Shown in pieces: positions 545 to 35,513 of a DNA stretch of 64,000 nt (its first letter is position 1; each line of letters opens with the position of its first letter). A model generated the notes under the pieces. That model did not search any database. It saw nothing but the letters and a program-made list of their open reading frames with translations, and was not told the DNA's origin. The stretch covers positions 1-64,000 of IMG/VR virus record IMGVR_UViG_3300032116_000161; one strand, given 5' to 3'. Both the position numbers and the translations under genes were made by a program. The stretch comes from a virus.

Positions 545-680
545 GACCATCAGGGAAATGGTGGAGATACTATGCTCCCAGCACCCTTAGCTGGGATATG
601 AGAGACGTAATTTATACACCCATAGGTCTCGGTTAACGGGTGTTTAACAATGTTACGGAATGTTTAGGTTTCGTAACATT
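545..680 (-). other. Structured psbA leader with three hairpins
   Basis: The stretch between the late promoter-like box at 689-696 and the psbA start holds three inverted repeats. They are a 12-bp stem with an 8-nt loop (649-680, one G-U pair), a 7-bp stem (576-596) and a 5-bp stem (545-562) close to the start codon. No T-run follows any of them, so they look more like leader structure than terminators. No gene is seen in 528-736. Regulation of psbA translation or mRNA stability is an inference. Confidence 0.45.
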
Positions 681-20151: not shown

Positions 20152-20276
20152 CGTTAAGCTCAGGCTCGCCACCAATTCTTTGACTGGAAATTGGAAACCA
20201 GGCGGGAGAGAGTCCCATCCGCACCAGGGTTGTTAGCGTGTCTCCATCACGGGCATAAGGGGATTGACTCCACCAC
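20152..20276 (-). ncRNA. Possible structured non-coding RNA or 3' UTR
   Basis: No convincing gene is visible here, and the stretch looks G+C-richer than its surroundings. On the minus strand it can form three hairpins in a row: CGTG/CACG at 20237-20251, GGGA/TCCC at 20204-20216 with possible extension, and CCAATT/AATTGG at 20172-20194. It then runs straight into the terminator. This layout fits a small RNA or a processed 3' end. I do not recognise a known RNA family. Confidence 0.35.
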
Positions 20277-30486: not shown

Positions 30487-31077
30487 TTAGTTTGAAATAC
30501 TCTTACTATATATTCTTCCTAATGTCCATTCTGAACTTGGAGTTTCATCAATATTGAATAATTTTTCAACTTCACCATTATTCCACCACTTTCTTCCAGT
30601 CATATATCTTCTTCTTTTTTCTTTAAATTCTTGAGAACGGGGTATTCCTTTTTGAACTTCTCTTTGTCTTTGTATATGCTCTTTTGATTTTTTCTTCCCA
30701 GACAAAGCATTACTGATATTTTTTTTATGTTCTTTGGAGGCAGTTTTACCATAAAAAGGATGATTTGATCCACTCATTTTTGAACTTTGAATTTCTCTTT
30801 GTTCTTCACTAACAACTCTACCAGAAGTCCCTTCTCCACCATCAGTAAGATTTCTCAAAATACCAGTCCCATTATCTTTTCTACCATAAACAGCAATCAT
30901 ATAAATTTCGTGTTTGATTGCTTCTTGTTCTGTTAAATTTCTTTTTAGATATATTATTCTATCTTTACTTGGTAAAGGCACAATTCTCTTTTTAACATAC
31001 AATCTAAACCCCTTACCTTTACCGATGTAATAAGGTGTTCCGTCTTCCCGCAAGTATGCGTAAGTGTAATATTCCAT
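30487..31077 (-). mobile_element. GIY-YIG homing endonuclease with NUMOD3 repeats
   Basis: 196 residues. The N-terminal YTYAYLREDGTPYYIGKG is the GIY-YIG core with the catalytic Arg/Glu region after it. SGSNHPFYGKTASKEHKKNI and the next repeat are NUMOD3 DNA-binding units. It is free-standing, with its own late box and terminator-like hairpin before it, as in T4 Seg genes. Such genes spread by cutting cognate DNA. Confidence 0.9.
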
Positions 31078-31099
31078 CTGCTTTGTTTGTGGTTATAGT

Positions 31100-31107
31100 T
31101 ATTTATA
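31100..31107 (-). promoter_or_regulatory. T4-type late promoter box (perfect)
   Basis: The minus strand reads TATAAATA, 23 nt before the homing endonuclease start. Confidence 0.7.
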
Positions 31108-31132
31108 CAAGAAAAGGAGCATTTCTGCTCCC
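31107..31132 (-). terminator. Terminator-like hairpin directly before a late box
   Basis: GGGAGC/GCTCC stem with TTTTCTT tail on the minus strand; the late box TATAAATA follows the tail. Confidence 0.7.
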
Positions 31133-31173
31133 AATCTTTTGCTTGAATAACCACAAACAAGCACTAATATTTA

Positions 31174-31617
31174 TCAACCAAGAATACTTTGTCTCCACTC
31201 TTCACTCATATTCACCATAATTGCTTCTGCTGCTTCTGGTGTTTCAGCATATCCTTCATCAAGTAAGTGTGAAAGGATAATATCGTAAATATCTACTTGT
31301 TCTTTTTTTAGTTTTGATTTTGCCTTTGCTGCTTTTTTGCTATGAGAATCAGCAACTCTTATCATTTTATTACTTCTTTCTTTATTCCTTTCTGCCTTTT
31401 CGTGCTCTGCTCTTGCCCTGTCGTAAGTTAATGTGCTATGTGGGTCATCTGCCTGTCTTTCTCTTTCTGCTCTTGTATCTGCTTCTCTTTCTACTCTGTC
31501 GGAAACCTTCCACATCATTTTTCCAACAGGAAGTTTTTTATAAGACATTTCATTTAAATCATTACTAACAACTTCCATATATGCTTCTTGAAGACTACGA
31601 AAATCTTGTGCGTCCAT
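31174..31617 (-). CDS. Presumed virion protein with shared C-terminal module
   Basis: 147 residues. It opens DAQDFRSLQEAYMEV and is then basic and coiled-coil-like. The last 45 residues (VDIYDIILSHLLDEGYAE, EAIMVNMSEEWRQSIL) recur in the 377-residue gene at 36979. The module looks like an assembly or anchoring domain. Function unknown. Confidence 0.7.
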   Translation of the reverse strand: MDAQDFRSLQEAYMEVVSNDLNEMSYKKLPVGKMMWKVSDRVEREADTRAERERQADDPHSTLTYDRARAEHEKAERNKERSNKMIRVADSHSKKAAKAKSKLKKEQVDIYDIILSHLLDEGYAETPEAAEAIMVNMSEEWRQSILG

Positions 31618-32746: not shown

Positions 32747-34708
32747 TTAGAACCTAAACTTAACATTTGCGGAAACTGCCGTGTTGCTTACACCATTATT
32801 AATTTGATGAACTCCTTGAATGATGATCATTTCTTTGTAGTCAACAGTTGCCGATGCCTCAATCGCATTATCAGTCGCATAAGAACCTTCAATACTTACA
32901 CCAAACAAGTCTTTCTTCTTACCACCGAAACGATGAGAAAGAGCAAGTCCGATTTCACCAGTATGTGAAGTCTCATCTACTACTTCAACACTTCTTGCGG
33001 ACTGAATAGAACCACTTTCAGTGAACGCATCTCTGCGATAGTTTCCTACGGTGTATCCTACGAATGGAGTGATGTTCTTATGAGCGTGCCAGAAGAGTCT
33101 GTTGTTTACCCACCACTCTTGACCTGTTGCGGTGCTCTCGTTATTAAAGACACCCTGAACATTACGAGAAACATTATATCTGTTTTGAGCAATCGCAGCA
33201 TTGGTTAAGAGTGAGAGTGTATTTCCACGAAGCATATTAAAGACGCCAATGTGACTTTTGTTCAGTTTGGATGTGCTATCAACGCCATCCAAGTTCACAT
33301 TTACATTATTATATTGAGCACCAATTGTCCAGGTTGGTTTAATATCAATCTCTAAACCACCACCATAGATAACTGATTTACCAGTGTATCCATTGTCGGC
33401 AGAAGACCACGCATAGTAGTTCTTACTGAATACTCTAACTCTATCAGTGGTTGGTTCAGTTGGTTCGTGGTTTAAGAGTCCTTGTAGTCCACTTCCAATA
33501 TTATCAAGGACTTCGTGCTGATCTACACGACCAGTGAGTGAATCAGATGAGTGTGTTGTAGAAACAGAGTTTGATAAAGCAGTTGTGGTAGAACCATCAC
33601 TATAGGTATCAGTCGTCACCATTGGAGTGGTAGTATTTGTGGTGAAGTCTCTATCAATAGTCTGAACTCCACCATCTTCTGATTCTGTGTGCTCTGTAAG
33701 CGTAACAGTCAGAACAGGAAGTGTGGTTGATGGGGAAGTGGAAGAACTTACCAGTGTTGGAGTTGATGGGGCAGAAGCAGTGGGAGCAGAAGCAGAACCT
33801 ACATTAGTAACGGTGAAGGATGAGGATGTTGCTCCACCAGCACCACCAGCAACGGCACCAGAAGCAGCGTCATAAGAAGATGGTCCAAAGATATAAGCAT
33901 ACTGGATATCAATAATGTCCCCAGTATTAATACCAGAGAACATAAATGCCATACCGATGGTGTAGTCTCCATCACCATCATCCTGTCCACCATAGTATGT
34001 TAATGGGTCTGTTGACCAGGAAGCACTAATACCAGTATTGGAGTTAGTTGCCGCAGTGAATAGTCCCAGAGCATACTTGGAAGCAAGTGCCTCTGACAGA
34101 ACTACATTGGTCGCAGGAACACCACCAGCATATCCTCTTACATTGAGTGTTGAAGAACTATCTCCTGCTGCTGCCCTTGCGTCTGGGTCAGTGAATCTTC
34201 CAAAGTATAATGTAGGAACATTCATCTTAAACTCTAAACGAGTATTGATGTCCACAAACTGTTGGTTATCATTGAAACGATAGTCGTGCTCAATATCAAA
34301 CTCGGTGACCGAACCAGACCATACAGCACGATTGTCAAAAGTTAAACCACGATATGAAACACCAGAGTAATCTACAAGAGTTCCTGTGATTACATTAACA
34401 CTTGCGTAACTCGCATTGTTGTTACCATAATTAAACAGAACTGTGGTTCCATCTGTATCAATACCTTTTACAGTCCATCCCTCAAAAGGAGAACCAGGAG
34501 TGAGATAATCGTATGAAGGATTAAATGTTGCGGTTCCTGTTGAATCGTAGAGAATACCAGGAGAAGTGTTACCGCCAGAACCAACAGTTCCAGCATCATT
34601 AACACCAATCTTTACATAGTTTCCTTCTAAAACTAATGGTGCTGCTGATACACTAGTTCCCATTAATAAAGCAGACGCAGCAGCAAGCGCCTTTTTAGCG
34701 TAAGACAT
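32747..34708 (-). CDS. Large outer-membrane beta-barrel / autotransporter-like protein
   Basis: 653 residues. The N-terminus is a signal peptide (ALAAASALLMGTSVSAAP). A passenger-like region follows to about 290. A Ser/Thr/Pro-rich linker leads to a C-terminal barrel of about 250 residues. It closes with NVKFRF, a C-terminal aromatic signature of Bam substrates. Its ribosome site lies in one arm of a 10-bp inverted repeat. A phage-encoded surface barrel could alter receptor access or superinfection. The role is inferred, not known. Confidence 0.8.
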   Translation of the reverse strand: MSYAKKALAAASALLMGTSVSAAPLVLEGNYVKIGVNDAGTVGSGGNTSPGILYDSTGTATFNPSYDYLTPGSPFEGWTVKGIDTDGTTVLFNYGNNNASYASVNVITGTLVDYSGVSYRGLTFDNRAVWSGSVTEFDIEHDYRFNDNQQFVDINTRLEFKMNVPTLYFGRFTDPDARAAAGDSSSTLNVRGYAGGVPATNVVLSEALASKYALGLFTAATNSNTGISASWSTDPLTYYGGQDDGDGDYTIGMAFMFSGINTGDIIDIQYAYIFGPSSYDAASGAVAGGAGGATSSSFTVTNVGSASAPTASAPSTPTLVSSSTSPSTTLPVLTVTLTEHTESEDGGVQTIDRDFTTNTTTPMVTTDTYSDGSTTTALSNSVSTTHSSDSLTGRVDQHEVLDNIGSGLQGLLNHEPTEPTTDRVRVFSKNYYAWSSADNGYTGKSVIYGGGLEIDIKPTWTIGAQYNNVNVNLDGVDSTSKLNKSHIGVFNMLRGNTLSLLTNAAIAQNRYNVSRNVQGVFNNESTATGQEWWVNNRLFWHAHKNITPFVGYTVGNYRRDAFTESGSIQSARSVEVVDETSHTGEIGLALSHRFGGKKKDLFGVSIEGSYATDNAIEASATVDYKEMIIIQGVHQINNGVSNTAVSANVKFRF

Positions 34709-34713
34709 AAAAA

Positions 34714-34790
34714 TCCTCTGTGAGTTCAGTGTGTACTAAACAAAACAAACCGAAGTATGAAAAGTAAAGTATTCACCGAATCACAGAGGA
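34714..34790 (-). promoter_or_regulatory. Inverted repeat that can hide the barrel gene's ribosome site
   Basis: On the minus strand TCCTCTGTGA (34781-34790) is a perfect 10-base complement to TCACAGAGGA (34714-34723), 57 nt downstream. The latter contains the ribosome site AGAGGA, five bases before the ATG. Pairing would block initiation. Confidence 0.65.
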
Positions 34791-34844
34791 CTCGGACTAT
34801 GTAGATTCAGACCATTAAGATCAAAATCAGTGATAACTGTATCT

Positions 34845-34852
34845 TATTTATC
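34845..34852 (-). promoter_or_regulatory. T4-type late promoter box before the barrel gene
   Basis: The minus strand reads GATAAATA at the very end of the lysozyme gene, about 137 nt before the barrel ATG, so the inverted repeat would be in the leader. Confidence 0.6.
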
Positions 34853-35513
34853 CTTTCTTCCACGCTTCGCCTTCTGCCTTACGGCGACGAGCAAGACCTG
34901 CTTCTACATTTGAACCAGGATTACGATAGAGATAAAGAGCATCAGGAACTAAATCCCATTCCTTATTCTTCAGGCGTTTGGTAATGGTGTTGAAATTATC
35001 TCCACCGTAGAAACCTGCTCCCAGATTATAAGCAAAGGAAAGAAGTGCTCCACGCTTACCATCAGTCATTTCATTCCAATGTGGAATTTTACGAAGTGCT
35101 GGAAGGAATTGATTCTTACACTGACTAATCAGTAACTCATCTGCTTCCTGTTGAGTGATTGATTCACCAAGTTTGAAAGGAGAACCATCTTTCTTACGAG
35201 TTGAACCCCAACCGATTGTGATTGGAAGTCCACCAGAAAGAGGGTCGGGATACGCATTAAGATGGCATCCCTCAAACTCTTTGATTAACTTGATGCCCAT
35301 CATTGGAACATCATCACCGCTCGTTACAGGAGCTGCAGCAGCAGGGGCTGGTGCAGCACTAGACTTTTTTCCTCTATAAATTTCTGCCCAGTCAATATTA
35401 TCTTCCAAATATTTGACAGGAAGATTGTCTTCTAACCATTGAACTGCTTTCACATGGTTAGGATTTCTTTCGTCGTAGAACTTAAAAAAGTTATGAAGGT
35501 CGATTCGTGCCAT
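34848..35513 (-). CDS. T4-type lysozyme (GH24) with N-terminal adaptor module
   Basis: 221 residues. Residues 1-33 form a module (LHNFFKFYDERNPNHVKAVQ then WLEDNLP) shared with the peptidase gene at 35612. A Pro/Ala-rich linker follows. The GH24 domain starts with IKLIKEFEGCHLNAYPDPL, carrying the catalytic Glu, then TIGWGSTRK with the catalytic-region Thr and RRRKAEGEAWKKG at the end. It cuts peptidoglycan at lysis or entry. Confidence 0.93.
   Translation of the reverse strand: MARIDLHNFFKFYDERNPNHVKAVQWLEDNLPVKYLEDNIDWAEIYRGKKSSAAPAPAAAAPVTSGDDVPMMGIKLIKEFEGCHLNAYPDPLSGGLPITIGWGSTRKKDGSPFKLGESITQQEADELLISQCKNQFLPALRKIPHWNEMTDGKRGALLSFAYNLGAGFYGGDNFNTITKRLKNKEWDLVPDALYLYRNPGSNVEAGLARRRKAEGEAWKKG

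Follow-up and report, generated by a model that had tools for sequence, protein, structure and literature searches.

The question raised by this locus is how a long inverted repeat, lying almost directly before the start codon of a phage gene, affects the expression of that gene. The window (the whole stretch of DNA analysed, 64,000 nt) belongs to a 66-kb virus fragment which carries psbA, nrdA/nrdB, tRNAs, and the PhotoRC-II and wcaG RNA motifs. With respect to the leader discussed here, its nearest named relatives are the Synechococcus phages DSL-LC02 and DSL-LC03 (Kyanoviridae), both of which are metagenome-assembled and originate from Dishui Lake (PMC10611076). The gene order at the locus is C39 peptidase, lysozyme, leader, barrel gene and DUF6450 protein (Table 1).

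The inverted repeat was found in the place given by the initial annotation. It consists of two exact 10-nt arms, TCCTCTGTGA (34714-34723) and TCACAGAGGA (34781-34790), with 57 nt between them, and in minus-strand order the arm TCACAGAGGA is followed by TTTTT and then by the ATG of the barrel gene. By itself, such a repeat is weak evidence: perfect inverted repeats (arms of 10 nt or more, spacing of up to 60 nt) number 12 in the window, compared with 5.1 ± 2.3 in shuffled sequences. The 10-bp stem originally described is present but was understated, since in the predicted fold of the sense (minus) strand it is the base of a hairpin of approximately 24 bp (34711-34793), whose weak outer helix also pairs with the AUG. 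The fold energy of the sense strand was -46.2 kcal/mol (z-score -5.47, 0/200 shuffles), while the antisense strand, over a slightly different stretch, gave a z-score of -2.36. This leader was the most stable among the 80 gene leaders of the window, and freeing positions -15 to +3 was calculated to cost 19.2-19.4 kcal/mol, the highest value of 65 genes (median 5.3). The earlier suggestion that the ribosome site is masked is thus borne out in the predicted fold, in which the hairpin covers both this site and the start codon at an opening cost of about 19 kcal/mol.

Table 1. Features of the barrel-gene leader and its surroundings (positions in the window)
Feature	Position	Strand	Basis
Phage lysozyme (endolysin), upstream neighbour	34848..35513	(-)	
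GATAAATA, T4/cyanophage-type late promoter box; overlaps the lysozyme stop codon	34845..34852	(-)	
Putative 5' leader of late transcripts, ~131 nt	34709..34839	(-)	start predicted from the promoter box
ACATAG, upstream half of the outer helix; may pair with the start-codon region	34797..34802	(-)	predicted fold
Main stem, 5' strand; includes TCCTCTGTGA (34781-34790)	34774..34793	(-)	fold and covariation
Main stem, 3' strand; includes TCACAGAGGA (34714-34723) and the first spacer U residues	34711..34731	(-)	fold and covariation
TTTTT spacer between stem and ATG	34709..34713	(-)	T at 92%, G absent (114 leaders)
TTATGT around the start codon (34706-34708), predicted to be paired	34705..34710	(-)	fold
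Regulated (barrel) gene: N-terminus like a signal peptide, variable central part, autotransporter-like beta-barrel at the C-terminus (residues 370-653)	32747..34708	(-)	

Three protein scans and two pattern scans of IMG/VR yielded 114 distinct intact leaders. On the basis of the 3' arm these can be divided into four classes: AGAGGA (class A, which includes the window), CACGGA (A2), CGAAG/CAAAG (B) and CTCACCTT-like (C). The arms are wholly different between the classes, with their complementarity retained, and in every class the hairpin ends 4-6 nt 5' of the ATG and is followed by a T-rich spacer. The distance from stem to ATG is 4 nt in 47 of 49 class A/A2/B leaders and 6 nt in 19 of 22 class C leaders, and most class A and class C leaders have a near-continuous stem of ~22-24 bp (16-31 bp in A2 and B). 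The covariance model of class C matches class A2 leaders at E-values of 0.0003-0.002 and the other classes weakly; the four classes are consistent with a single family.

The conservation of base pairing was compared with a tree-aware null, in which substitutions were re-dealt along branches within the paired columns (500 runs). Canonical pairing reached 95.9% in the 84 leaders of classes A/A2/B (null 80.0 ± 2.9, 0/500) and 97.7% in the 30 leaders of class C (null 85.5 ± 3.5, 0/500). Compensatory double changes on the same branch numbered 10 against 1.2 expected in the former alignment, and 5 against 0.3 in the latter. Controls with shuffled letters (column shuffle) and with slid partners agree with the tree-aware result, and an R-scape-like pairwise test, which has low power here (~2.4 substitutions per column), found no single significant column pair. 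Compensatory changes in related phages, which the initial annotation proposed as a check, are present, and pairing is conserved beyond the null in both alignments.

Two further observations concern individual leaders. In class C (for example L029:3387-3430) a second hairpin, located near the presumed 5' end of the mRNA, repeats the arm core GAGUUG/CAACUC, and its pairing is kept. In L004 and L137 (IMGVR_UViG_3300008113_003285) the 5' arm is missing and the hairpin loop directly adjoins sequence from inside the lysozyme gene, which reflects either a deletion or a misassembly.

The same alignments bear on the strand and on the molecule under selection. G-U cells (315) greatly outnumber A-C cells (28), and the covariance model scores 107 bits on the sense strand compared with 33 bits on the antisense strand, which together indicate selection on the sense RNA. 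It is consequently scarcely credible that the locus is a DNA-level inverted repeat (a protein-binding dyad or a cruciform) or a chance repeat; the perfection of the 10-nt dyad and the roughly twofold enrichment of such repeats in the window would suit this idea, but these counts and scores, as well as the compensatory changes, speak against it.

What exactly is conserved differs in part from what had been proposed. The stem of the window does cover AGAGGA, as annotated, but this kind of motif is not itself conserved: an SD-like 4-mer occurs within the last 20 nt of 71 of the 114 leaders and is absent from the other 43, including all 30 of class C. Since the stem is retained in these 43, it is the pairing that has been kept and not the SD motif; the element is thus a stem placed at a constant distance from the AUG, and not a masked SD sequence. 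A complement of the AUG is present in the outer 5' segment of 51 of 60 leaders (18.7 expected from shuffling), comprising most of those of classes A and B but not those of class C.

The hairpin is also tightly linked to one gene. Among 132 pattern matches, 127 precede a frame encoding a barrel protein (one of them truncated by a contig end); of the remaining five, two are chance matches without a leader context, and three are leader-like with no frame detected by an ATG search. No match among the interpretable ones precedes any other gene, and there is one hairpin locus per genome. Moreover, five class B leaders have DUF6450 upstream in place of lysozyme, and one leader has C39; the hairpin is retained in all of them, which indicates that it belongs to the barrel gene. 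The possibility that it is the terminator of the lysozyme gene is disfavoured for the same reason.

The product of this gene deserves comment. The C-terminal 284 residues are predicted to form a beta-barrel preceded by a helix (pLDDT 86.6), and the best PDB structure match of the model is the translocator of the autotransporter NalP (TM 0.77), so the designation "barrel" adopted in the initial annotation is appropriate. The protein could be assigned significantly to neither a Pfam nor a PHROG family, its sequence matches no PDB entry, and no cellular homologues of the barrel were confirmed in GTDB genomes. In L005, L009, L025, L029 and other relatives the region between the signal peptide and the barrel varies widely, with the leader, signal peptide and C-terminal barrel being kept, a pattern resembling a modular, exchangeable passenger. 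The literature searched contained no description of a phage encoding an autotransporter-like barrel beside its lysis genes.

The late promoter box GATAAATA, which lies upstream of both arms, is of the type of the published cyanophage late motif NATAAATA (PMC2984593), and transcripts starting from it contain the whole hairpin. A [AC]TAAATA box at a class-specific distance from the ATG was found in 101 of 107 leaders, compared with 7.5% of shuffles; the six leaders lacking it are all of class B. The claim that both arms are included in the late mRNA is therefore supported in the window and in 101/107 relatives. It follows that, without an opener, the late promoter of the barrel gene would feed a locked message, which counts against the translation-blocking reading given below.

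This arrangement separates the barrel leader from the closest known precedents. In T4, helices at the start sites repress the genes e, soc, 49 and I-TevI, about 100-fold in the case of e (PMC3014915), and in e and I-TevI the late promoter is located in the 5' strand of the hairpin or adjacent to it, so that late transcripts escape (PMC3014915, PMC2988022). By analogy, the barrel hairpin might silence early read-through transcripts only, with late transcripts escaping it. The start-codon geometry is the same, the lysozyme gene adjoins, and T4 provides the precedent, but in 101/107 leaders both arms lie downstream of the late box, and the segment between the arms in the window contains no ATAAATA. 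This explanation is largely refuted by the box position, and we regard it as very improbable.

In other respects the T4 hairpins (together with that of mobE of phage Aeh1) resemble the barrel leader in that a stable helix of a T4-like phage overlies the ribosome site, the AUG, or both, of a late gene, and gene e is likewise a gene of the lysis region. The barrel hairpin differs in being much longer, in its U-run spacer, in the lack of a conserved SD sequence, and in its conservation across many divergent phages by compensatory change. Since its promoter is not inside the hairpin, the barrel leader is not counted as a member of the T4 type, although functionally it is most like this group. The window contains an internal contrast: a GIY-YIG-type gene (30487-31077) has just 5' of its ATG a hairpin of 12 or more bp (31077-31174, minus strand, z-score -5.68) with TATAAATA between the arms, i.e. 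with the promoter inside. This is the classical T4 (I-TevI) layout, in a cyanophage.

Considering the conservation of the pairing, it is highly probable that the hairpin is a genuine regulatory RNA which keeps expression of the barrel gene down. The best explanation, and in our judgement a rather likely one, is a cis-acting leader hairpin which blocks translation, although the translational nature of the repression is something we infer. Late transcripts would begin at the GATAAATA box and carry a leader of ~130 nt, which would fold into the long hairpin (~24 bp in the window), leaving 4 nt (6 nt in one class) between the 3' strand and the AUG; in the class of the window the outer helix would pair with the AUG too. 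Loading of the 30S subunit would thus be blocked, and the barrel protein would be made weakly, or only once the hairpin had been opened. Such a block is the most likely effect because of the energy cost and the geometry. In cyanobacterial genes without an SD sequence the start regions tend to be relaxed (PMC5397173), so a stem located 4-6 nt from the AUG should repress translation and not help it.

Candidate openers include processing by host RNase III or RNase E, a phage or host protein, and initiation on the nascent mRNA. Two of the openers named in the initial annotation are unlikely. Temperature was rejected on energetic grounds, as opening would still cost 15 kcal/mol at 50 C; RNA thermometers also hold a ribosome site in a stem, but the barrel stem is far too stable and would show no melting in the physiological range. 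Nor is coupling to the upstream gene likely, given that its stop codon is ~140 nt away. A short upstream ORF in the loop (GTG start, 16 codons) was considered and dismissed, as by eye it is not conserved in relatives. As regards a riboswitch, which would combine a conserved ligand-binding core with alternative structures, no conserved alternative pairing was found in class A/B leaders. In class C, in which GAGUUG/CAACUC segments are repeated, the main hairpin dominates; an alternative-pairing switch is not supported there, since the copies form a separate 5' hairpin and in one subgroup the 3' arm has changed with the upstream copy unchanged. A conditional lock inside the late transcript, opened by a phage or host factor and timing or dosing the display of the barrel near the lysis genes, may be suggested tentatively; it would represent a new family of cyanophage regulatory RNAs.

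The conserved U-run directly after the stem, which would be unneeded for simple masking, looks terminator-like, and this counts against the translational reading. It forms the basis of the main rival explanation, a serious one that was not raised previously: the hairpin and U-run may act as a transcription attenuator, terminating some of the transcripts that start at the late promoter, so that a short leader RNA would result and complete barrel mRNA would be scarce. The five spacer positions are 92% T and never G (n=114), a d'Aubenton-Carafa-type score is above zero in 60 of 72 leaders, and TTTTT immediately 5' of the ATG occurs in only 1 of the 80 genes of the window. A stem passing directly into a U-run is indeed what intrinsic terminators and leader attenuators share. 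However, the remaining 12 of the 72 leaders score negative, the U-run is short (5 nt) and interrupted by C or A in ~40% of leaders, and the hairpin (51-85 nt) has a large structured apical part and is not called by a simple terminator scan. Intrinsic terminators have a short loop and lie at the 3' end of a transcription unit, whereas this element is placed directly before an ATG and is retained with the downstream gene where the upstream one differs. Neither the fixed distance between stem and ATG nor the AUG-complementary segment of classes A and B would be expected from termination alone. On balance we consider attenuation unlikely, although it merits attention.

Alternatively, the stem of 20 or more bp might serve RNA processing or stability, being cut by host RNase III, which would free the start region, or protecting the 5' end of the mRNA. 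The near-continuous stems, of about 22-24 bp in most class A and C leaders and of 16-31 bp in classes A2 and B, are in the size range of RNase III substrates. Cyanobacteria possess one to three RNase III genes, and their RNase E cuts AU-rich sites beside ribosome sites (PMC10989914), which also favours this possibility. A stabilising hairpin, however, need not lie 4-6 nt from the AUG, and a role in processing or stability seems improbable.

Structured 5' leaders of single genes are known from T4-like cyanophages, namely PhotoRC-II and wcaG (Rfam RF01717 and RF01761). They regulate other genes, and the barrel leader differs from them as a plain long hairpin ending at the AUG; an Rfam scan of this leader found no family near its gathering score, these two included. 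Both motifs were detected elsewhere in the window: PhotoRC-II at 562-655 (-) (84.4 bits), ~35 nt upstream of psbA, and wcaG at 20158-20258 (-) (72.2 bits), where the gene that comes after it is GDP-sugar epimerase-like. The Rfam motif PhotoRC-II originally came from marine samples and a cyanophage, and here it is present in a phage of apparently freshwater kin.

To conclude, the analysis has identified an apparently undescribed, conserved regulatory RNA of uncultivated freshwater cyanophages, for which the evolutionary evidence is strong and the proposed function simple. The protein under its control would be an autotransporter-like barrel encoded beside the lysis genes. The rule known from T4 appears to be broken in these phages, as the late barrel message itself carries the lock, which would mean either that expression of this protein is throttled deliberately or that an opening factor exists.
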